Assembly (NCBI GenBank): GCA_002304445.1
Contig: NEVA01000023.1
Location: 1 to 54,651 of the forward strand
Direction: 5' to 3'
DNA from: Opitutia bacterium Tous-C4FEB
GTDB taxonomy: Bacteria > Verrucomicrobiota > Verrucomicrobiia > Opitutales > Opitutaceae
Length of the DNA stretch: 54,651 bases
Part shown: piece after piece, positions 35,893-54,443 of the stretch
Layout of the letters: each line of letters opens with the position of its first letter
How positions within the stretch are numbered: position 1 is the first letter of the stretch
Position numbers and translations under genes: made by a program
Notes under the pieces: generated by a model
Database searches by the model: none
Told to the model about the DNA's origin: nothing
What the model saw: only the letters and a program-made list of their open reading frames with translations

Positions 35893-37164
35893 ATGGCCAT
35901 TCCCTCCGTCCTCGATCTCAAAATCGTTAAGAAATCCACGCAAAGCCTCGTTGAGGCCGAGCTTGCCGCCACCGGCGGTCTGCTTCGGCTTGCGCCCGCC
36001 TGGGTGCCGCGCTCTTTCCTCCAGCCCGGCCTGCGGATCAAGCTCCACCCCGATGATACCTACGCCTATGGCCTGAATCGCGGCGGCATTGACGAACGTT
36101 GGTTTGCCTCGACGACCGTCACCGCCAACGAGGGTCGCGCTTGGGACGAAGGCCTCAGCTGGTGCGTGGTCGGCAACAAAAAGTTTACGCTTCAGCAAGC
36201 CGTGGCCGATACCGGTGCCACACTCGTCGGTTCGGCGATTTGGAAAAAATACAAGAAGTGGCCCGTTTACTCGAAGTTCTTCGATAACATGGGGCCGATC
36301 CCGCACCACATGCACCAAAGTGCCGCGCAGGCGAAGCTCGTCGGCCAAGAAGGCAAACCGGAGTCCTACTACTTCCCGCCGCAGCACAATCCCGTCGGCA
36401 ACAACTTCCCCTATACGTTCATGGGCTTCGAGCCCGGCACGACGAAAGAGCAGGTCAAACAGTGTATCCGCAATTGGAACAAGGGCGACAACGGCATCCT
36501 CGATCTCTCGAAAGCCTACCGCCTCAAAGTCGGCTCCGGTTGGCTGATTGATCCGTGCATCCTCCACGCCCCCGGTTCCCTCTGCACCTACGAGCCGCAG
36601 TGGGGCAGCGACGTCTTCGGCATGTATCAAAACCTCGTCGAGGGCCGCGAAGTGCCATGGTCGCTCCTGGTAAAGGACATGCCCAAGTCGAAGCACAAGG
36701 ACATCGATTTCATCGTCGATCAGCTCGACTGGGAGAAGAACGTGGACCCGAATTTCAAGGACAACCACTACCTCGAGCCCGTTCCTGTGGCCGACACCCG
36801 CAGCGAGGGTTACGTCGACCGCTGGATCGTTTACGGCAAAGTTGACGGCGAACAGCTCTTCACCGCCAAGGAACTGACCGTCGATCCCGGCACCAAATGC
36901 ACCGTCAAGGATACCGGCGCTTACGGCCTCATCTGCGTGCAAGGCTCCGGCAAGATCAACGGCCAGCCGCTCGTCAGTCCGAAGCTCATCCGCTTCCATG
37001 AGCTCACCGAGGACGAGTATTTCTGCACCGAAGACGGCGCGAAAGCCGGGGTTACCTTTGAGAATACCAGCTCGACCGAGCCCATGGTTTGCCTCCGGTA
37101 TTTCGGTCCCGAAGTAAATCCCACCGCCCCGAAAATGGGCGCGTATCGCAATAACAAGTTCTGA
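35893..37164 (+). CDS. Cupin sugar isomerase, class I mannose-6-phosphate isomerase-like
   Basis: A 423-residue double-cupin protein without a signal peptide. GPIPHHMHQS (residues about 135-144) supplies histidine metal ligands, YYFPPQHNP lies in the family position, and GWLIDPCILHAPGSLCTYEP carries the second histidine and the arginine-region loop, as in phosphomannose isomerases. The exact sugar is not determined. It follows the FG-GAP gene by 57 bp and precedes a TIM-barrel isomerase, suggesting cytoplasmic processing of the sugar that the locus imports. Confidence 0.72.
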   Translation: MAIPSVLDLKIVKKSTQSLVEAELAATGGLLRLAPAWVPRSFLQPGLRIKLHPDDTYAYGLNRGGIDERWFASTTVTANEGRAWDEGLSWCVVGNKKFTLQQAVADTGATLVGSAIWKKYKKWPVYSKFFDNMGPIPHHMHQSAAQAKLVGQEGKPESYYFPPQHNPVGNNFPYTFMGFEPGTTKEQVKQCIRNWNKGDNGILDLSKAYRLKVGSGWLIDPCILHAPGSLCTYEPQWGSDVFGMYQNLVEGREVPWSLLVKDMPKSKHKDIDFIVDQLDWEKNVDPNFKDNHYLEPVPVADTRSEGYVDRWIVYGKVDGEQLFTAKELTVDPGTKCTVKDTGAYGLICVQGSGKINGQPLVSPKLIRFHELTEDEYFCTEDGAKAGVTFENTSSTEPMVCLRYFGPEVNPTAPKMGAYRNNKF

Positions 37165-37277: not shown

Positions 37278-38315
37278 ATGCCCGCCAATAACTTCCCCAA
37301 ACTCCACAACGCAGCCTGGCCCGGTCTCGTCGGCAAAGGCTCCCCCGGCGCCGAGCCGTTCATCGACCTCGACACCATGCTCGATCTCACCGCGAAAGCC
37401 GATGTCGGCGGCGTGAAATTCGATGGCATCGATCTCTTCCTCTACAACCCGCACACCGATATCGATATCTCCGACGACGGCATCAAGGCCCTCGCCAACA
37501 AGATCAAGTCGAAGGGTCTCGTCGTCGGTTCCGTCGTCGCCCCGGTGTGGTTCGACGCTTCCGCCGGCGGTGACGAAAAGGCCCGCGCCAACTTCGTCTC
37601 CCACGTCCGCAAGGCCATCCGCATCGCGAAAAAACTCCGCGAGCTCGGCGTGCGTCCCTACGGCGTCGTCCGCATCGACAGCGCCACGGGCGTCACCGCC
37701 TGGGACAAAGACCCTAAGGGCACCACCAAGCTCATCGCCCAAACCTTCCGCGAATGCGGCAAGATCGCCAAGGGCGAAGGCGAGCGCCTCGCCGCCGAAG
37801 GTGAGATCTGCTGGGGCGGCATGCACTCTTGGAAAAACATGCTCAACCTCCTCGAGGCCGTTGGCATGCCCAAGGTCGTCGGCTTCCAAGCCGACATGTC
37901 GCACACGCACCTCTACACGCTCGGCGCCAACGCCGAGGCGCACCGCATCGTCCCGAAGAATTACCACTACGAGCCCGCCGAGTTCCACAAGGCGATGGTG
38001 AAGCTCACCGACGCGCTCCGTCCGTGGACGATCGATTTCCACGTCGCGCAAAACGACGGCAGCACCTACGGTTCCGGCTCGCACGAGAAGACCGGCCGCC
38101 ACTGCCTCGCCACCGACCCGAAGGGCAAACTCAACATCGCCCGCGACTCCGGCTACTGGCTCCGCGACGGCAAGGGCAAGGTCACGAAAAAGATGAAACA
38201 CATCTGCTGGGACGGCTGCATGTTCTCCAACGAAGTCCTCATGAAACAGCAGACGTGGAACGACATTCTCGCCGCCATGATCGAGGTCCGCACCAACCAC
38301 GGCTGGGTCGGCTGA
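37278..38315 (+). CDS. Xylose-isomerase-like TIM-barrel enzyme
   Basis: A 345-residue cytoplasmic protein of the sugar isomerase/epimerase/2-keto-myo-inositol dehydratase-like TIM-barrel group. Visible blocks are [54 protein letters not shown] and [10 protein letters not shown]. The Asp/His/Asp residues in these blocks are plausible metal ligands. No signal peptide. In loci of this sort such enzymes epimerise, dehydrate or cleave keto-sugars made by the neighbouring Gfo/Idh/MocA enzyme; the reaction here is unknown. Confidence 0.75.
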
Positions 38316-38437: not shown

Positions 38438-39586
38438 ATGGCCAAGAAACAACTCCGCATCGGTCTCATCGGCTACAGCTTCATGGGCCGCGCTCACAGC
38501 AACGCCTTCCATCAGGTTAATCACTTCTTCCCCTCGTCCTACGAACTCGTCCCGCAAGCCGTCTGCGGCCGCGACGCCGCGAAAACGCAGGAGTTCGCCG
38601 ACAAATGGGGCTACAAGTCCATCGAGACCGATTGGAAGAAGCTCATCGCGCGCGACGACATCGACGTCGTCGACATCGCCACGCCGAACAATCTCCACGC
38701 CGAGCAAGTCATCGCCGCCGCCAAGGCCGGCAAGATGATCCTCTGCGAAAAGCCCCTCGCGCTCAACGGACCCGAGGCCGAAAAAATGCTCAAGGCCGTC
38801 ACGAAGGCCGGCGTGGCCAATATGGTCTGGTATAACTACCGCCGCTGCCCCGCCGTCGTGCTCGCCAAGCAACTCATCGACGCCGGCAAGCTCGGTCGCG
38901 TTTACCACTACCGAGCAAACTTTCTCCAAGACTGGACCATCAATGCCGATCTCCCGCAGGGCGGCACCGGCCTCTGGCGCCTGGACTCCAAAGTCTCCGG
39001 CTCCGGCGTCACCGGCGATTTGCTCGCGCACTGCATCGACACCGCGATGTGGCTCAACGGTGGCATCAAAGATGTGAGCGCGATGACCGAGACTTTCGTC
39101 AAAGAGCGCAAACACACCGTCACCGGCAAGGTTGAGAAGGTGAACATCGACGACGCCTGTCTGTTTCACTGTCACTTCAACAACGGCTCCCTCGGCCTCT
39201 TCGAGTCCACCCGTTACGCCCGCGGCCACAAGGCGCTCTATACCTTCGAGATCAACGGCGCGAACATGTCGCTCAAGTGGGACCTGCATGATCTCCACCG
39301 CCTCCAAGTCTTCGACTATACCGACGAAGGCCCGGAGCGCGGCTGGAAGAGCATCCACGTCTCCGACGGCGATCATCCCTATTGCGGCAATTGGTGGGTG
39401 CCCGGTCTCCAGCTCGGTTACGAACACAGTTTCGTCCATGCGATGGTCGAGTTCGTCCGCGGCCTCGAAAGCGGCAAGGGCTGCAAACCCGACTTCAAAG
39501 ACGGACTCGCCACCGACTATGTGACCGACGCCGTGCTCAAGTCGGCCAAGACCCGCAAGTGGCAGAAAGTAAAGCAGGCCAAATGA
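38438..39586 (+). CDS. Gfo/Idh/MocA-family dehydrogenase, cytoplasmic
   Basis: A 382-residue NAD(P)-dependent sugar or cyclitol dehydrogenase. The Rossmann motif is [18 protein letters not shown] near residues 6-23, the catalytic lysine lies in [11 protein letters not shown] near 102-112, and the C-terminal alpha/beta domain includes [20 protein letters not shown] with the usual Asp/His pair. Unlike the enzyme at 13507 it has no Tat signal. It likely oxidises a hydroxyl of the sugar (often C3) using NAD, feeding the TIM barrel and DUF1080 enzymes of the locus. Confidence 0.88.
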
Positions 39587-39680: not shown

Positions 39681-42600
39681 ATGTTTTGTCACGCCGCCCG
39701 CCTCCTCGCCTTGGTCTCCGTTTTCGCCGCCACGCTCACCGCGGCCGCTCAGAATTCCCTCGTGCTCAATCCGCCCGCCGGGTCGAAGGCCACGGGCAAA
39801 CACGTGGTCCTCCTTTCCGGCGATGAGGAATACCGCAGCGAGGAGGCCCTCCCGATGTTGGCGAAAATTCTCAGCCAACGCCACGGCTTCAAGACCACCG
39901 TCCTCTTCTCGTTGGGGGCCGACGGCACGATCGATCCCACCAACGGCAAATCGCTCGCCGACTCCGAAGCCCTGGACACCGCCGACATTATCATCATGTC
40001 GCTCCGTTTTCGTCTGTGGACCGATGAAGCGATGGCGCGCTTCGACGCCGCTTATCGCCGCGGAGTTCCGATGATTGCGCTGCGCACCTCGACGCACGCC
40101 TTCAACTTTCCCGCCGCCAGCAAGTGGTCGGATTACTCGTGGAACAACAAGACCACCAACCCGGGAGGCTTTGGGAACCAAGTCTTGGGCGAAACGTGGA
40201 TTTCCCACTGGGGCAAACACAAGATCGAGGCCACCCGCACCGCCGTCGAGCCGGCCAACGCCAACGACCCGCTCCTGCGCGGCGTGGGTGAGATTTTTGG
40301 CCCCACCGACGTCTACGAAGTCTCATTGCCCGATGATGCAAAGATTCTCCTGCGCGGCCTCGTGTTGAAGGGCATGCAACCCACCGACGCACCGGCCGAC
40401 ACGGTGAAGAAACTCGCCGGCACGACCGCCACCCAGCCGCTCAACTCACCCGCGATGCCCGTTGCTTGGACGCGTCTCCACCGGAATCCCGCCGGCAAAG
40501 AAAACAAAATTTTCGTCACCACGATGGGTGATGGCATCGACTTACAGGACGAGTCGCTCCGCCGGCTGGTCGTCAATGCCACCTACTGGGCCGCCGGGCT
40601 CGAAATTCCGGCCAAGGCCGATGTCGCCACGTTCGACGGTTACGCCCCGCGCATGTACGGCTTCAACGGCTATCGCACCGGCATCAAACCCGCCGACCAT
40701 GCCCTTGGTAAAGTGCTCCCCGTGGGCGGCACCGTGCCGCCGCCGCCGCCGAAACCTCCGGCCGCGCCGAAGCCCACGACGTCGGTCGCACCTGTGGCGC
40801 CCACGATCCCCGCCGCGCTCAACACGCCGCTCACCCTTAATCCCGGCACCAAGATCGCCCTCGTCGGCAACGCGCTCGCCGATCGCATGCAGCATTTCGG
40901 CGCGCTCGAGACGCTCATTCACGCGAAGTATCCGAAACACGAACTCGTCGTGCGCAATCTCGCCGTCACCGGCGACGAACTGACCACCCGCGCCCGTTCC
41001 AAAGACTTTGGCTCCCCCGACGAGTGGCTCGCCCGCGTCGGCGCCGATGTGATTTTTGCCTTCTTCGGTTTCAACGAATCCTTCGCCGGTCCCGCCGGCC
41101 TCGCGAAATTCAAGTCGGATCTCGATGCGTTCCTCCGCGACACCCGCGCCAAAAATTACGGCACCCGCGGAGCGCCGCAGATCGTGCTGTTCTCGCCGAT
41201 CGCCAACGAAGCCCATCCCGACAAAAATTTCGAAATTCCGGCGGCGAACAACCGCAACCTCGCGCTCTACGCCGCCGCGATGGCCGAGGTCGCCGGCGAT
41301 CGCGCCGGTGTGACCTTCGTCGATCTCTACGCCCCTTCGCAGAAACTGTTCGCTGAGGCCGCCAAGGCCGGCCGGCCGCTCACGATCAACGGCGTCCACC
41401 TCAACCAGACTGGTGACGCCGCCTTCGCGCCCGTGATTTTCCAGACGCTATTTGGCGAAGCCGCGCCGGTCGGTGACTTCTCGCAACTCCAGGCCGCCGT
41501 AAACCGGAAAAACACCGAGTGGCATTCCCGCTACCGCACGGTCGATGGCTACAACATCTACGGCGACCGGTCGAAGATCGCCTACGAATCCGTCAAGGAT
41601 CAGCCCAAGATCACCAATTATCAGATCATGCAGGAGGAGATGAAACAGCGCGACACCATCACGGCCAACCGCGACCGCATCCTCTGGGCTGCCGCCAAGG
41701 GCGAAACCGCCCCGCCCGAGATGCTCTCGCTTCCGTTGGTCACTCCTTTCGGCACCAACAAGCCCGGCACCAACCCCGACGGCACCTACGAGTTCTTCAC
41801 CCCGGAGCAATCCATGGCGCAGATGAAACTCGCCCCCGGAGTGAAGGTGAACCTGTTCGCCAGCGAGCGCGAATTCCCCGAACTCGCCAAAGCCGTGCAG
41901 ATGGCCTGGGACACCAAGGGCCGCCTCTGGGTCGCCGTCTGGCCCAACTACCCGAGCCGCACCCCCACTTCCAAACTCGGCGACAGCATCATCATCCTGG
42001 AAGACACCGACCGTGACGGCAAAGCCGACAAACTCACCCACTTCCTCGACAACCTGAATTGCCCGACTGGCTTTCAATTCTACAAGGACGGCCTGCTCGT
42101 CATGCAGGCGCCGAATCTCTGGTTCGTCCGCGACACCGACGGCGACGGCAAGGCCGACACCCGCGAAAAAGTCCTCATGGGCCTCGACTCCGCCGACTCC
42201 CATCACACCGCCAACTCCCTCGTCTACGAGCCCGGCGGCGCGATTCTGCTCAGCGACGGCGTCTTCCACCGCTCGCAGGTTGAGACCGCCCTCGGGCCCG
42301 TGCGCAACATCGACGGCGCGCTTTTTCGTTTTGAGCCGCGCACCGGGAAATTCGAGACCTACGCCGCGTACGGCTTCGCCAATCCGCACGGCCGCGCCTT
42401 CGACCGCTGGGGCAATGATATCATCACCGACGCCACCGGCAATGCCACCTACTTTGGCGCGGCCTTCAGCGGTCGCCTCGATTACCCCGAGAAACACCCA
42501 CGGTTGAAACAGATTTGGGAACGTCCGTCGCGCCCCTCCGCCGGCAGCACGATCATTACGAGCACGCATTTCCCCCAAGAGTATTGGGGCAATTATCTTA

Positions 42601-44789
42601 ACCCCAATGTGATTGGCTTTCAGGGCATTTTTCGCATCTCGCTCGAGGCCGACGGCGCCGGGATCAAGGGCGTCCGTCAGACCGACCTCATGTCGTCGAC
42701 GGAGAAAAATTTCCGACCCATCGACACCAACGTCGGGCCCGATGGCGCGATCTACGTGATCGACTGGCACAATCCCCTGATCGGTCACCTCCAGAGCCAT
42801 CTCCGCGATTCCAACCGCGACCACGTCCACGGGCGCATCTATCGCCTCACCTACGAAGGCCGTCCGCTCGCCACCCCGCCCGTCATCGACGGCCAACCGA
42901 TTCCGGCGTTGCTTGAGTTGCTCAAGCGCCCCGAAGACCAGATCCGCAACCTCGCCAAAATCGAGCTCGGCAAACACGACACCGCCGCCGTGATCGCCGC
43001 CGCCAAGACTTGGGTCGCCGCGCTCGACTCCGCGCACGCCGATTATCAACACCACCTTACCGAAGCGCTCTGGCTGCATCAGTGGCATAACGTCGTCGAC
43101 GTCGCGTTGCTCGACCGCGTTTTGAAATCCCCGAGCGCCGATGCCCGCGCCGCCGCCGTGCGCGTACTCTGCTACTGGCGTGATCGCGTCCCCGGCGCGC
43201 TGGCGATTCTCCGCGAGAAAGCCTCCGATGAAAGCCAGCGCGTGCGCCTCCACGCCGTGCGCGCCGCCAGCTTCTTCTCCGAAGTCGCCGCGACCGAGGT
43301 CGCCCTCGCCGCGACCAAGCTCCCCGTCGACTACTATCTCGACTACGTCATCGGCGAGACGCTCCGCCAGCTCCGTCCGTTTTGGGCGAAGAGTATTGGT
43401 GACGGCTCCGGCTTCGCCTCGGCCGATCCCGCCAGCGTGCGCTACCTGCTGCGCACCCTCAAAGTTTCCGACCTGCTCAAACTCCCGCGGACCGTCGACG
43501 TGCAGGAAAACATCCTCGGCCGCTCCGGCGTCACCGATGCCGTCCGCGCCGAAGCCCTCGCTGGCCTGGCCAAAGCCCGTAAGGTTACCCCGGTCGAACT
43601 GCTCCTCACCACGATCGATTCACCCGGCGAAGTGGACTGGAAAAACGTCGGTCGCCTCCTGCTGATGCAGCCTGCGGCCGATCTCAAACCCCACCGCGCC
43701 GCGATGCTGAAGCTCGCGCTGGCCGACAACGCCCCGGGCCGCTCCCACGGTTGGGCCGCGCTTGCGCTCGCGGACGGCTCGCTCGACGCGCTCTGGACCG
43801 AGGCGCGGAAATCCCCGCTCTCCCAAGCCAGTTTCCTCGGCGGAGTGCATCTCATTCCCGAGGCCAAGTTACGCGCCACCGCCTATGACCTCGTGATGCC
43901 GATTCTCGCCGCCACCATCACCGATCTCCCCGGTCCCGATGGCATCGTGCAAGCCATGCAACGCGACGCCATCCGCTCCGCCGTCAGCACGCGCCGAGAA
44001 CCCGCTGCCGTCTTTAACGCCGTCGCCGGCATGATCGCCCGCGGTTATCAAGTGCCGACCGCCGCCCAGGGTCTGCGCGCGCTCCCGCGCGCCAATTGGC
44101 CCGCCGAGTCCGCCGCCGCCGCCGCGCGCGATCTCGTGGCTTGGGCCGGCAAAGCCCACTCGAGCGAACGCACCGGCCGCGATTATATCGAGACCGTTCA
44201 AGTCGCCGGCCTGCTCGTGGATACCATGCCCGCCGCCGAAGCCGCACCGCTCCGCGCCACTTTGGCCGGTTTGCGCGTGGCGAGCTTTGTGGTTCGCACC
44301 GTCGTCGAAGAGATGCGTTACGACACGACGCGCCTCGTCGTGCAGATGGGAAAACCCTTCGAGATCATTTTCGAGAATCCCGACGTGATGCCGCACAACC
44401 TCGTCGTCGTCCAACCCGGGGCGCGTCAAAAGGTGGGCTTGTCCGCGATGGAGTTGCCCGCCGGTCATGTGGACCGCCAAGGCCGGGCTTGGGTGGGCGA
44501 AGACAAGGAAATCATCGCGGCGTCCAAAATGCTCGAGGCTGGTCAGGCGGAGACGATGAAGATCACCGCACCGCGTACGGAGGGCGTCTACGAATTCGTC
44601 TGCACCTTCCCCGGGCATTGGGCGCTCATGCATGGCGAGATCGTCGTGACCAAGGACGTCGACGCCTATCTCAAGGCCAACCCGCCGCCGGCCCCCGCGG
44701 CCCGTGCCGTCACACTCCTCGAACTTTGTGATCCGCGCCTCGCGCAACCTCTCGTTTCGTCCACCGTCCTATCCTCCCGCACCCCATGA
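39681..44789 (+). CDS. Exported multidomain ThuA-SGNH-propeller-HEAT-cupredoxin fusion protein
   Basis: A 1702-residue periplasmic protein with a signal peptide (residues 1-23). Domains in order: ThuA-like (about 38-345; VVLLSGDEEYRSEEALPML, STHAFNF); a Pro/Ala linker (about 352-380); an SGNH/GDSL-like domain (about 388-595) in which the catalytic Ser position is A398 (GNAL for GDSL) while H573 in INGVHLNQ is kept; a PVC-type six-bladed propeller dehydrogenase-like domain (about 709-1070; DTDGDGKADTREKV, FANPHGRAFD); HEAT-like repeats (about 1075-1530); and an azurin-like cupredoxin (about 1550-1660) with all type-1 copper ligands: H1572, C1641, H1646, M1650. Related PVC proteins usually end in cytochrome c; copper here is a variation. 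It probably oxidises a sugar and passes electrons through copper. The stop overlaps the DUF1080 start by 4 bp. Confidence 0.85.
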   Translation: MFCHAARLLALVSVFAATLTAAAQNSLVLNPPAGSKATGKHVVLLSGDEEYRSEEALPMLAKILSQRHGFKTTVLFSLGADGTIDPTNGKSLADSEALDTADIIIMSLRFRLWTDEAMARFDAAYRRGVPMIALRTSTHAFNFPAASKWSDYSWNNKTTNPGGFGNQVLGETWISHWGKHKIEATRTAVEPANANDPLLRGVGEIFGPTDVYEVSLPDDAKILLRGLVLKGMQPTDAPADTVKKLAGTTATQPLNSPAMPVAWTRLHRNPAGKENKIFVTTMGDGIDLQDESLRRLVVNATYWAAGLEIPAKADVATFDGYAPRMYGFNGYRTGIKPADHALGKVLPVGGTVPPPPPKPPAAPKPTTSVAPVAPTIPAALNTPLTLNPGTKIALVGNALADRMQHFGALETLIHAKYPKHELVVRNLAVTGDELTTRARSKDFGSPDEWLARVGADVIFAFFGFNESFAGPAGLAKFKSDLDAFLRDTRAKNYGTRGAPQIVLFSPIANEAHPDKNFEIPAANNRNLALYAAAMAEVAGDRAGVTFVDLYAPSQKLFAEAAKAGRPLTINGVHLNQTGDAAFAPVIFQTLFGEAAPVGDFSQLQAAVNRKNTEWHSRYRTVDGYNIYGDRSKIAYESVKDQPKITNYQIMQEEMKQRDTITANRDRILWAAAKGETAPPEMLSLPLVTPFGTNKPGTNPDGTYEFFTPEQSMAQMKLAPGVKVNLFASEREFPELAKAVQMAWDTKGRLWVAVWPNYPSRTPTSKLGDSIIILEDTDRDGKADKLTHFLDNLNCPTGFQFYKDGLLVMQAPNLWFVRDTDGDGKADTREKVLMGLDSADSHHTANSLVYEPGGAILLSDGVFHRSQVETALGPVRNIDGALFRFEPRTGKFETYAAYGFANPHGRAFDRWGNDIITDATGNATYFGAAFSGRLDYPEKHPRLKQIWERPSRPSAGSTIITSTHFPQEYWGNYLNPNVIGFQGIFRISLEADGAGIKGVRQTDLMSSTEKNFRPIDTNVGPDGAIYVIDWHNPLIGHLQSHLRDSNRDHVHGRIYRLTYEGRPLATPPVIDGQPIPALLELLKRPEDQIRNLAKIELGKHDTAAVIAAAKTWVAALDSAHADYQHHLTEALWLHQWHNVVDVALLDRVLKSPSADARAAAVRVLCYWRDRVPGALAILREKASDESQRVRLHAVRAASFFSEVAATEVALAATKLPVDYYLDYVIGETLRQLRPFWAKSIGDGSGFASADPASVRYLLRTLKVSDLLKLPRTVDVQENILGRSGVTDAVRAEALAGLAKARKVTPVELLLTTIDSPGEVDWKNVGRLLLMQPAADLKPHRAAMLKLALADNAPGRSHGWAALALADGSLDALWTEARKSPLSQASFLGGVHLIPEAKLRATAYDLVMPILAATITDLPGPDGIVQAMQRDAIRSAVSTRREPAAVFNAVAGMIARGYQVPTAAQGLRALPRANWPAESAAAAARDLVAWAGKAHSSERTGRDYIETVQVAGLLVDTMPAAEAAPLRATLAGLRVASFVVRTVVEEMRYDTTRLVVQMGKPFEIIFENPDVMPHNLVVVQPGARQKVGLSAMELPAGHVDRQGRAWVGEDKEIIAASKMLEAGQAETMKITAPRTEGVYEFVCTFPGHWALMHGEIVVTKDVDAYLKANPPPAPAARAVTLLELCDPRLAQPLVSSTVLSSRTP

Positions 44790-45544
44790 AAAAACTCCGC
44801 TCCCGCCTCGTCTCGCTTGCGCTGCTCGCGCTCGCTCCCTTCGCCGTCGCCGCCGATGCCGGCTTCAAATCAATCTTCGACGGCCAGACCCTTGCCGGCT
44901 GGGACGGCAACAAAGACGTCTGGTCCGTCCGCGACGGCGCGCTCACCGGCCAGACCACCGCCGAGAAAACCGTCAAGGCCAACACCTTTCTCGTCTACAA
45001 CGGCGCCCAGCCCGCGAATTTTGAGCTGAGGCTGTCCTTCCGCCTCACCGCCCAAAACGAGAAGAATCAGGCCAACTCCGGCGTCCAATACCGCAGCAAG
45101 CTCATGGATCCCGCGACCTTTGTGGTCGGCGGCTACCAAGCCGACATCGATTCCACGGGCAAATATGCCGGCATGCTCTACGAAGAGAGAGGTCGCGGTA
45201 TCTTGATGGGACCCGGCGAAAAAGTCCGCATCGGCGCCACGATCATGGTCGATGACGCCAAAAAAGCCGGCGCCAAGAAGAAGCAGACCGCCGTGGAGAA
45301 ACTCCCCGGGGCCACGCCGCCTGCCGAGATTCTCGCCGCCTACAAACTCGGCGAATGGAACGATTTTGTCGTCATCGCCGAGGGCAACCACCTCCGCCAC
45401 TACCTCAACGGCAAGCTTACCGCCGACGTGATCGACACCGATTCCACCCTCGGAGCCGCTGCCGGCGTCATCGCCTTCCAGCTCCACACCGGACCGCCGA
45501 TGACGGTTCAGTTCAAGAACGTCTCTCTCAAGACCCTCCCGTAA
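44786..45544 (+). CDS. DUF1080 protein, 3-keto-disaccharide hydrolase type
   Basis: A 252-residue exported protein (signal peptide to about residue 23) with the DUF1080 concanavalin-like fold: FKSIFDGQTLAGWDGNKDVW, SGVQYRSKLMDP, YQADIDSTGKYAG, WNDFVVIAEGNHLRHYLNGK and a C-terminal VQFKNVSLKTLP. Pfam describes the domain as 3-keto-disaccharide hydrolase. With ThuA and Gfo/Idh/MocA neighbours, hydrolysis of a 3-keto glycoside is a sensible assignment. Translation is coupled to the fusion gene, and a terminator follows, so it closes that transcription unit. Confidence 0.85.
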   Translation: MKKLRSRLVSLALLALAPFAVAADAGFKSIFDGQTLAGWDGNKDVWSVRDGALTGQTTAEKTVKANTFLVYNGAQPANFELRLSFRLTAQNEKNQANSGVQYRSKLMDPATFVVGGYQADIDSTGKYAGMLYEERGRGILMGPGEKVRIGATIMVDDAKKAGAKKKQTAVEKLPGATPPAEILAAYKLGEWNDFVVIAEGNHLRHYLNGKLTADVIDTDSTLGAAAGVIAFQLHTGPPMTVQFKNVSLKTLP

Positions 45545-51563: not shown

Positions 51564-51570
51564 TCTGCCT

Positions 51571-51604
51571 TGTCATTGCGAGAAGCGCAGCGACGAAGTA
51601 ATCT
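51571..51604. repeat. Half copy of the GTCATTGCGAG dispersed repeat
   Basis: TGTCATTGCGAG at 51571-51582 followed by AAGCGCAGCGACGAAGTAAT matches the first half of the same repeat family as 38324-38397, without the inverted second half. It lies between the second receptor and the cytochrome-type gene. Confidence 0.65.
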
Positions 51605-51677
51605 ATCCGCCAACTCCCGCGTGCCAGCGCCCTTACCTCGCGCTTTCACTCTCCGCTCACTTCCACTTTCCCAAATC

Positions 51678-54443
51678 ATGATCTCCTCCCGCTTGCTCCA
51701 CCACCGCCGCGCCAGCCTCGGCGCGCTGCTCCTTCTGGGCCTTACCGCGGTCGCGCTCCCCGCCCAAACGCCCGACGAAAAAGCCAAGGGCAAAGCCAAA
51801 TCGGCTGCGCCCGCCGCAGCCGCCCGCGCCGAACTCGCTGCCCTCACCGAGGCGACCGCTCCCTCGGCCATCCAAGTGGCCGCCGGGTTCAAAGTGGAGT
51901 TGCTCTACACGGTGCCAAAGGAAGAGCAGGGTTCGTGGGTCGCGCTCGCCGTTGACCCCAAGGGCCGGATCACCGCCGGCGACCAATACGGCGGGCTCTA
52001 CCGGATCAGCCCGCCGCCTGTCGGCACGAGCACCGGCACCAAGGTTGAAAAACTCGCCATCACTTTGCCTGCGGTCCCGCTTCCCCCCGGAGCCGAACCG
52101 CGCCCGACCCCTAAACGCGCGCAAGCCACCGGCGGTGCCGCCTCGCCCTCCGTGGGCGCACACGGGCTCCTTTATGCCTTCGACAGCCTCTACGTGATGG
52201 TCGACGAGGTGCCGGCCAAGCAGGGTATTTGGCGCCTCCGCGACACCGACGGCGACGATCAGTTCGACGATTTCAAGTATCTGCGTGAAACTCGCGGCAG
52301 CGGCGAACACGGCCCCCACTCGCTGGCCCTTTCTCCGGACGGCAAATCCATCTATTTTGCGAACGGCAATATGACCGCCCTGCCCACGGGCTTCGAGAAG
52401 TCCCGCCCCGTCCGCTGGGATGAGGACCATCTCCTTCCCCGCATGTGGGATGCCCGCGGCCACGCCAAAGACACATTCGCGCCCGGCGGCTACATCGCCC
52501 GCTCCGACCCGGAGGGCAAAACGATCGAGATTTTTGCCATGGGCTTCCGCAACCAGTTCGACCTTTCCTTCGACCAAAACGGCGAACTCTTCACCTACGA
52601 TTCCGACATGGAGTGGGACCAGGGCGCGCCGTGGTATGTGCCGACCCGTATCAACCACGTCGTCGATGCCGGTGACTACGGTTGGCGCAGCGGCGCGGGC
52701 CGTTGGCCCGACTACTACGCCGACAGCCTGCCGGCCCCGCTGAATATCGGCCCGGGCTCGCCCACCGGCACCGTCTTCGGCACGGGCGCGAAATTTCCCG
52801 CCAACTATCAGACTGCGTTTTACGCCGCCGATTGGACCTACGGCACGCTCTACGCCGTCCACCTCAAGCCCGACGGCGCCAGCTTCATCGGCGAGAAGGA
52901 AGAATTTCTCTCCGGCAAGCCGCTTCCGCTCACCGACCTCGTGATCAACCCCCGCGACGGCGCGATGTATTTCGCCGTCGGCGGCCGTCGCACGCAGTCT
53001 GCGCTCTACCGCGTGACCTATACCGGCACCGAATCTACCGCCCCGGCCAAGCCGCCGGAGCCCACCGCTGAGGCGAAACTCCGTCGCTCGCTCGAAGTTT
53101 TGCACGCCGAAGGCACCGGCCCGGCGGCCATCGCGATCGCCTGGCCCCACCTCGCTTCGCCCGACCGTTACGTGCGCTTCGCCGCCCGTGCCGCGATCGA
53201 GCGCCAGCCCGCTTACCACTGGGCCGACCGCGCGCTCGCCGAGAAGAATCCCCAGGCCGCCATCGAGGCCCTGATCGCCCTCGCTCGCGTTGGCGAGAAA
53301 CGCTACCAGCCCAAGCTCATCGACTCGCTTCTGCGACTCGACTTCGCGAAACAACCCGCGGCGCTCCGGCTCCCACTCCTCCGCGCTTGGCAGCTCGCCT
53401 TCACGCGCATGGGCAAGCCCGATGCCGCCACCTGCGCCCGCGTGGTCGCGAAACTCGATCCGCATTTCCCGCACACCGATACGTTCGTGAACCGCGAACT
53501 CGTCTCGCTGCTCGTCTACCTCGACTCGCCCACCGTCGTGGCGAAGACCGTGCCGCTACTCCGCGTCGCCGAACCCGTGACCATCACCGGCGAACTGCTC
53601 GGCGGCGAAAAACTCATCGCGCGCAACGACCGCTACGGCTCCACCGTGCAAAGCGTCGCCGATGCCCGCGCCGACCGCCAACAGATCCACTACGCCTACA
53701 ATCTTCGCCACGCCACCGCCGGTTGGACGCCCGCGCTGCGCCGCGAGTATTTTTCGTGGTTCCCCCGCACGAGCGCATGGAAAGGCGGCGCCAGCTTCCC
53801 CGGATTCCTGAAAAACATCCGCACCGAGTCGCTCGCCCGCGTGCCCGACGCCGTCGAGCGTATCGCGTTGGAGAAACTCTCCCTGGCGCCGCTCAACACC
53901 GTCGTCGCCGACTATGTCGCCCCGAAAGGACCGGGCCGCGACTACACGGTGAATGACGCGGCCGCTCTCTTCCCCGCCAAGCTCACCGGCCGCAAATTCG
54001 CGCAAGGCAAAGCGATGTTCACCGCGACCGCGTGTCTCGCCTGCCACCGCTTTGGCAACGAAGGCTCCGGCATCGGTCCCGACATCTCCGGCGCCGGCAA
54101 CCGCTACAGCGTTCGCGACATGTTGGAGAATCTGATCGAGCCCTCAAAAGTCATCAGCGACCAATACGGCAGCGAACAGATCGAGCTGAAGAACGGTGAC
54201 ATCGTGTTCGGCCGGGTCGTCGGTGAAGCCGAAGGCCAGCTGCTGGTGATGAGCAATCCCTTCGCGCCCGATGACGTGACGAAGGTCGATCCGGACCGCA
54301 TCAAAGAGCGGAGCAACAACCCTGTTTCCATGATGCCGGCCGGTCTGATCAACAGCTTGAACGCGGACGAGTTGAAAGACCTCGTCGCGTATCTCCTGAG
54401 CGGCGGCAACCCCGACGACCCGATGTTCGCAAAGGCGAAGTAA
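51678..54443 (+). CDS. PVC-type exported haem protein: propeller, HEAT repeats, cytochrome c domain
   Basis: A 921-residue periplasmic protein with a signal peptide (to about residue 30, VALPAQ). A six-bladed propeller region (about 60-465; VALAVDPKGRITAGDQYGG, FDSLYVMVDEV, MGFRNQFDLSFDQNGELFTY) resembles soluble glucose/sorbosone dehydrogenase folds. HEAT-like repeats follow (about 480-640), then a cytochrome c domain with one haem site C786-L-A-C789-H790 and a likely axial Met in NNPVSMMPAG. It is probably a sugar oxidase with its own electron carrier, complementing the cupredoxin-tailed fusion. The start at 51678 is preferred over a long upstream frame from 51570 that would translate the repeat. 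Confidence 0.86.
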   Translation: MISSRLLHHRRASLGALLLLGLTAVALPAQTPDEKAKGKAKSAAPAAAARAELAALTEATAPSAIQVAAGFKVELLYTVPKEEQGSWVALAVDPKGRITAGDQYGGLYRISPPPVGTSTGTKVEKLAITLPAVPLPPGAEPRPTPKRAQATGGAASPSVGAHGLLYAFDSLYVMVDEVPAKQGIWRLRDTDGDDQFDDFKYLRETRGSGEHGPHSLALSPDGKSIYFANGNMTALPTGFEKSRPVRWDEDHLLPRMWDARGHAKDTFAPGGYIARSDPEGKTIEIFAMGFRNQFDLSFDQNGELFTYDSDMEWDQGAPWYVPTRINHVVDAGDYGWRSGAGRWPDYYADSLPAPLNIGPGSPTGTVFGTGAKFPANYQTAFYAADWTYGTLYAVHLKPDGASFIGEKEEFLSGKPLPLTDLVINPRDGAMYFAVGGRRTQSALYRVTYTGTESTAPAKPPEPTAEAKLRRSLEVLHAEGTGPAAIAIAWPHLASPDRYVRFAARAAIERQPAYHWADRALAEKNPQAAIEALIALARVGEKRYQPKLIDSLLRLDFAKQPAALRLPLLRAWQLAFTRMGKPDAATCARVVAKLDPHFPHTDTFVNRELVSLLVYLDSPTVVAKTVPLLRVAEPVTITGELLGGEKLIARNDRYGSTVQSVADARADRQQIHYAYNLRHATAGWTPALRREYFSWFPRTSAWKGGASFPGFLKNIRTESLARVPDAVERIALEKLSLAPLNTVVADYVAPKGPGRDYTVNDAAALFPAKLTGRKFAQGKAMFTATACLACHRFGNEGSGIGPDISGAGNRYSVRDMLENLIEPSKVISDQYGSEQIELKNGDIVFGRVVGEAEGQLLVMSNPFAPDDVTKVDPDRIKERSNNPVSMMPAGLINSLNADELKDLVAYLLSGGNPDDPMFAKAK

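Follow-up and report, generated by a model that had tools for sequence, protein, structure and literature searches.

How would a large propeller protein pass on electrons if it ended in a copper domain instead of the cytochrome c that is usual for its family? The question is raised by a 54,651-nucleotide stretch of DNA from Opitutia bacterium Tous-C4FEB (contig NEVA01000023.1, positions 1 to 54,651; hereafter the window), in which one gene joins ThuA, SGNH-like, propeller, HEAT, and cupredoxin domains (Table 1). The original prediction described a single exported chain of 1702 residues with the domains in this order, and Pfam, the modeled fold, and an open reading frame (ORF) uninterrupted across all 1702 residues bear out the domain order. 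The protein is a copper-ended variant of a known but uncharacterized propeller family of the Planctomycetes-Verrucomicrobia-Chlamydiae (PVC) type, and on balance we lean toward reading it as an exported PVC-type propeller oxidoreductase that would oxidize a sugar, with electrons leaving through the fused copper.

Propellers of this kind were predicted usually to end in cytochrome c, and this agrees with what we find in the home genome, where 12 ORFs score above the TIGR02604 cut-off (all were fetched). Ten carry a CxxCH motif, placed at 74-93% of the frame, and two carry a cupredoxin, these being the window's ORF and C34/L096; none of the 12 has both modules or neither, and the neighboring propeller gene at 51570 likewise has CxxCH. 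The window's propeller scores 217.1 bits against the TIGR02604 cut-off of 122.2 and matches Pfam DUF7133 at residues 708-1058 (2e-74), and a motif scan of the whole 1702-residue chain finds no CxxCH. The chain thus shares its propeller family with the PVC-type heme-binding CxxCH proteins (TIGR02604/DUF7133), and its SGNH-propeller-HEAT order with L105, another home-genome protein, which ends in cytochrome c (6.4e-9); it differs from them in lacking CxxCH, in its cupredoxin end, and in an added N-terminal ThuA domain. The comparison suggests that, on a PVC-type propeller, a cupredoxin has replaced the cytochrome c that usually forms the C-terminus. The NCBI name "heme-binding CxxCH" misfits the copper-ended members that pass the cut-off, the window's and L096. 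Within the literature covered (most subscription papers and bioRxiv were outside reach), no title or opening of an abstract describes a fusion between a cupredoxin and a propeller of this kind.

Relatives point to the same kind of exchange. A whole-protein scan with one genome per species gave 85 relatives, and the 80 best loci were retained; nearly all are labeled Verrucomicrobia, Opitutae, or related groups. In 11 of the 80, the chain is split into an SGNH-propeller gene and an adjoining HEAT-cupredoxin-heme gene (in L064 the first gene begins where the contig does; a separate ThuA gene is present in 4 of the 11), and in all 11 the cupredoxin gene also has a CxxCH, located after the cupredoxin motif. 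The sole split-locus cupredoxin gene that was scanned, that of L049, matches TIGR02603 at 5.5e-28. On a propeller tree of 50 chosen rows (31 copper, 10 heme, and nine with neither in the chain), whose root is unknown and in which several heme rows on long branches are flagged as unsure, the copper label requires four changes, at least three of these forced by starred branches, and the heme label at least two. These label changes therefore suggest, short of proof, more than one exchange between heme and copper. The alternation of heme and copper, together with the CxxCH in the split cupredoxin genes, provides the strongest grounds for the role that we predict for the copper domain, that of an electron-transfer module, which is well supported by comparison.

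The copper site itself has the type-1 composition that was predicted. H1572, C1641, H1646, and M1650 are found at exactly those positions, in the azurin order H-C-H-M and within a cupredoxin fold recognized by Foldseek; Pfam Copper-bind matches residues 1543-1656 (2.8e-10). The first His is conserved in 70 of 70 aligned rows, the window's own included, and the Cys, second His, and Met in 68 of the 68 rows that cover them, two rows being gapped there; because the set is invariant wherever it is covered, it is not a chance occurrence. The best PDB sequence match of the C-terminal tail is auracyanin A (2aan, phmmer 3.1e-11), and Foldseek places the auracyanins 6kol (TMt 0.87, 33% identity to the modeled cupredoxin) and 2aan at ranks 1-2 with many azurins lower. 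The azurin model TIGR02695 gives 35.8 bits, far under its curated cut-off of 105.1 (azurin distribution is treated in PMC8779525, in the excerpt available). Auracyanins A and B and azurin thus share the ligands and fold with the window's cupredoxin, which differs in being fused to a large chain. Such a site would be expected to load copper. The domain could instead handle copper or deliver it to an outside copper enzyme, for which one may cite the exported location suggested by the N-terminus and weak CopI matches, far under cut-off, among sister cupredoxins. We regard this as highly improbable, given the full type-1 set with its invariant axial Met, best matches that are electron carriers, and the heme domain that is the alternative to the cupredoxin and stands downstream of it in the split genes.

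Is the propeller, then, a sugar dehydrogenase? A model of residues 690-1702 (mean predicted local distance difference test score 84.8; predicted TM score 0.67) was compared with known structures by Foldseek, and the top 1000 matches were realigned with VIA; failure of a family to appear in the VIA lists is not counted as absence. VIA ranks 1-16 are all pyrroloquinoline quinone (PQQ), pyranose, aldose, or glucose dehydrogenases (in the case of 2ism a putative one), with Z scores of 26.4-23.5, root mean square deviations (rmsd) of 2.7-3.4, and 272-296 aligned residues; they include 6h7t of family AA12 (Z 26.4, rmsd 3.2, 294 aligned), 3a9g (26.2), 1cq1 (24.9), and 2g8s and 3das (both 23.5). In the model, the propeller resembles the six-bladed PQQ-dehydrogenase fold of the fungal AA12 pyranose dehydrogenase CcPDH (6jt5, Z 25.6), which also has a fused electron-transfer domain, there a cytochrome b instead of copper (PMC6881789, excerpt). 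All 63 aligned rows that were compared agree at nine residues of the propeller: D839, H841, N901, R1012, D1028, H1036, R1042, D1043, and R1052.

Several observations weigh against an assignment as a PQQ dehydrogenase. Next in VIA after the dehydrogenases come the hedgehog-interacting protein (HHIP; Z 23.0), which is not known to be an enzyme, and an SMP30-type lactonase (Z 22.5), and because they follow so closely the fold alone does not fix function. The leading propeller match in Foldseek is 5d9b, a luciferin-regenerating enzyme (E 5.1e-7), and the 50 listed matches include no PQQ dehydrogenase, an order that VIA realignment reverses. A search of PDB sequences with the propeller profile, taken to E 10, returned 18 distinct entries. 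Not one of them is named as a PQQ dehydrogenase, and the strongest are short NHL-like pieces of teneurin-like proteins. No sequence similarity to CcPDH was found, and the Arg-Asn pair of its quinone site (Arg430 and Asn431; PMC6881789, excerpt) reads A900-N901 in the window's propeller; this is a motif reading and not a superposition, because there is no sequence route to the PQQ enzymes that would give a residue-level ligand map. By the same reading, Arg occupies position 900 in 0 of 31 rows of the propeller alignment. In the home genome pqqC was not found and pqqE gave only matches far under cut-off, with neither model passing its cut-off in any of 14 control genomes; five Verrucomicrobia are reported to import PQQ while not synthesizing it (PMC12124388, excerpt). 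The heme propeller at 51570-54443, unlike the copper propeller, reads Arg-Asn by eye, in "GFRN", and may be a more classical PQQ-type protein.

The same evidence feeds an alternative in which the propeller is not redox-active but a lactonase, lyase, or binding module, and the chain is a scaffold whose cupredoxin serves another protein, either the neighboring heme propeller or a separate dehydrogenase, docked on the cupredoxin or exchanging electrons with it. The unconserved PQQ Arg (by motif), the lead of the luciferin-regenerating enzyme in Foldseek, the VIA scores of HHIP and SMP30, and the heme propeller gene nearby are all compatible with it. So are nine of the 80 loci, at which the SGNH-propeller-HEAT chain has no cupredoxin in frame and no redox module was seen in the chain, an observation that also counts against a copper-ended oxidoreductase; among these, L037 is cut by the contig end, L056 is followed by only 210 bases, and at L048 and L079 no frame of at least 60 residues within about 8 kb on each side has a CxxCH or cupredoxin motif. 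Nonetheless, all 12 home-genome propellers above the cut-off have exactly one redox module, and the polar cluster of the propeller is invariant, so that we consider a redox-inactive propeller unlikely.

A sugar substrate is suggested by the gene downstream, which encodes a 3-keto-disaccharide hydrolase (DUF1080); four bases, ATGA, are common to its start and the stop of the fusion. Eighteen ThuA-fused relatives have a contig that runs on past the gene, and 16 of these have a DUF1080 homologue nearby, the exceptions being L009 and L010. At 33 ThuA-less relatives with a frame that begins inside the contig, the flanks being short in some cases, no such homologue was found, and this counts against the reading as a sugar-oxidizing propeller. 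Universal pairing is thereby ruled out; the hydrolase gene goes with the ThuA-fused relatives, with the contig-edge loci L038, L070, and L076, and with L077. The Caulobacter lactose 3-dehydrogenase LacABC is a GMC-type enzyme and belongs to another protein family, whereas the window has a propeller-cupredoxin chain. The likeness between the two would lie in periplasmic oxidation adjoining DUF1080, a proposed 3-keto-glycoside hydrolase (PMC9007349, excerpt). A LacABC-like route may also exist elsewhere in the home genome, since one of its four Gluconate_2-dh3 matches lies about 0.3 kb from a DUF1080 match on C12. The home genome has 17 DUF1080 matches; the one at G000:C13:56588-57184 contains one in-frame TGA and could be a pseudogene or an assembly error.

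Locus L077 is the one relative with ThuA alone, and it complicates this picture. Its DNA is 91-95% identical to the window on both sides, but window positions 40777-44744 are missing at this locus (L077 3300-3700): the ThuA gene ends in the Pro-rich linker and is followed by DUF1080, and a remnant similar to the C-terminal tail of the window's chain persists in the last 50 or so bases ahead of DUF1080. The L077 metagenome-assembled genome (MAG) may hold the missing part elsewhere or be misassembled. Taken at face value, L077 would fit an explanation in which the fused part is dispensable, ThuA and DUF1080 do the pathway work, and the neighboring Gfo/Idh/MocA protein, found at 16 of the 80 loci, carries out the oxidation. 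Against this, the propeller-HEAT-cupredoxin part is about 50-80% identical in 40 aligned single-chain relatives with its ligands invariant, and the window's Gfo/Idh protein starts without an obvious signal peptide (by eye); we hold such dispensability to be very doubtful.

Returning to a sugar-oxidizing propeller with a copper exit, the computation shows the domains, the ligand conservation, the alternation of heme and copper, the fold, and the gene neighbors; the scheme that we infer from them for export, copper loading, electron flow, cofactor, substrate, and the order of steps is as follows. The ThuA domain and the dead SGNH domain would bind a sugar or glycoside, or the ketosugar product; the propeller would oxidize the substrate by means of a bound cofactor that takes two electrons, whether PQQ or something else; the fused copper site would release the electrons one by one to a soluble carrier, either a standalone azurin or a cytochrome c, from which they would reach a terminal oxidase; and the DUF1080 hydrolase would cleave the 3-keto-glycoside product. 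A possible way out for the electrons is offered by the sole standalone azurin of the home genome (L104 4894-5418 +, a 175-residue frame, lipoprotein-like by eye), which is divergent from oxidase genes at L104 487-4665 - encoding a COX2-cytochrome c, COX1, and a probable third subunit, the last identified by eye.

The original proposal of a self-contained copper-wired sugar dehydrogenase is thus only partly upheld. The copper wiring and the dehydrogenase assignment draw support from the ligands and fold, from the cupredoxin that replaces cytochrome c, from the dehydrogenase matches in VIA, and from the overlap with DUF1080. "Self-contained" fares less well, since the PQQ Arg is Ala by motif, pqqC was not found, and an outside acceptor is needed; the lost SGNH Ser, the Foldseek ranking, and L077, without the propeller-copper part, further detract from the proposal. 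More tentatively, these chains could represent a family of copper-wired propeller glycoside 3-dehydrogenases of Verrucomicrobiota, with cupredoxin and cytochrome c as exchangeable exits on a common chassis, the copper-plus-heme genes of split loci as relay partner subunits, and possibly a cofactor that is not PQQ. The natural set of heme, copper, and copper-plus-heme versions on related chains provides a direct test of an electron-transferring dehydrogenase role, since the color of the copper version allows it to be tracked. Many cytochrome-bearing multidomain proteins of Verrucomicrobia lack an assigned function, as in the PSCyt class, which is comparable but of another family (PMC5615132, excerpt).

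GC content at third codon positions is 0.80-0.82 in each of the five domains. The protein is probably exported, judging from its N-terminus, and a hydrophobic signal-like start is also seen by eye in all of the relatives with a readable N-terminus, 16 of 18. Pfam does not list ThuA for the whole 1702-residue protein at E 0.01; segment 39753-40650 scanned alone matches PF06283 at 3.4e-8 (34.4 bits against a cut-off of 33.4). A model of residues 25-660 aligns in VIA with the ThuA-like structures 4e5v (Z 17.7, rmsd 3.5, 228 aligned) and 1t0b (Z 16.9, rmsd 2.8, 202 aligned), and a set of ThuA residues is invariant in 21 of 21 aligned rows. HEAT_2 matches residues 1142-1219 (2e-8), and the structural model has helices in the HEAT region.

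In SGNH hydrolases, block I supplies the catalytic Ser and block V an Asp-x-x-His motif. The window's domain has the fold (Pfam Lipase_GDSL_2 at residues 410-580, 1.5e-11; VIA 7br2, Z 19.0), and the alignment rules out a catalytic esterase through loss of the Ser and Asp: position 398 is Ala, Gly, or Thr in 36 of 39 rows and Ser in three, and position 570 is Asn in 37 of 40 rows and Asp in three. Position 573 is His in 27 of 40 rows and lost in 13, and Asn465 is kept in all 40. The domain is likely a binding module.

Table 1. Features of the window around the copper-ended propeller gene
Feature	Coordinates	Strand	Remarks
Gene without Pfam or NCBIfam match at E 0.01	35893..37164	+	Neighbor at 12/80 loci
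Sugar-isomerase-like TIM barrel (AP_endonuc_2)	37278..38315	+	Neighbor at 15/80 loci
Gfo/Idh/MocA oxidoreductase	38438..39586	+	Neighbor at 16/80 loci
Full ORF, 1702 residues	39681..44789	+	ThuA, SGNH-like, propeller, HEAT, cupredoxin
Signal-peptide-like N-terminus, residues 1-24 (...TAAAQ)	39681..39752	+	Read from sequence
ThuA domain, residues about 30-330	39768..40670	+	Pfam and structural match
Pro/Ala-rich linker, residues about 331-383	40671..40829	+	Relative L077 breaks off here
SGNH-fold domain, residues about 384-640	40830..41600	+	Catalytic Ser and Asp lost
Propeller (DUF7133/TIGR02604), residues about 700-1075	41778..42905	+	Pfam, NCBIfam, model
HEAT-like helical repeats, residues about 1076-1520	42906..44240	+	HEAT_2, model helices
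Cupredoxin domain, residues about 1525-1662	44253..44666	+	Pfam, PDB matches, fold, ligands
Ligand codon H1572	44394-44396	+	
Ligand codon C1641	44601-44603	+	
Ligand codon H1646	44616-44618	+	
Ligand codon M1650	44628-44630	+	
3-Keto-disaccharide hydrolase (PF06439/DUF1080)	44786..45544	+	Pfam 2.5e-37
Related propeller protein with CxxCH domain (TIGR02603) at its end	51570..54443	+	

The fusion is not a one-off. Twenty of the best 80 loci are ThuA-fused relatives, with a cupredoxin seen in 19 (L011, which is labeled Gemmataceae, ends with its contig) and a frame break splitting the ThuA part of L012. A further 39 have propeller or HEAT together with cupredoxin and no ThuA in the fetched frame, six of them starting at a contig edge (L018, L038, L045, L070, L076, and L078). 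Ahead of the last HEAT part, an insert is present in many of the relatives without ThuA; in L020 (7842-12365 +), the sole relative scanned, the insert (residues about 1143-1241) is an F5/8 type C (galactose-binding-like) domain. The L068 contig, from a MAG labeled Klebsiella pneumoniae, has an SGNH-propeller-HEAT relative, and the label is probably wrong.

Across 288 genomes drawn evenly over the phylum, Copper-bind occurs in 37 genomes with 67 matches, of which 36 are in frames shorter than 350 residues, seven are in frames of intermediate length, and 24 are in frames of at least 800 residues. The 24 long frames include 14 with SGNH-propeller-cupredoxin, counting the window's own, and the copper domain on a propeller chain is therefore a recurring arrangement. 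Seven others (L081, L090, L092, L093, L098, L102, and L103) combine DUF6797, which passes its cut-off in all but L098, with a cupredoxin at the C-terminus, and their propeller signal is weak at most; DUF7133 is weak or missing in this class, and six of the seven, L092 excepted, have a sub-cut-off TIM-barrel match. Two frames from two other genomes, L099 (3819-6581 +) and L100 (3689-6427 -), have the order DUF1080-cupredoxin-PA14, a single ORF in each case directly fusing the 3-keto-disaccharide hydrolase to a cupredoxin. In the last, L101, the cupredoxin is N-terminal, ahead of a weak GSDH/DUF7133-like part.

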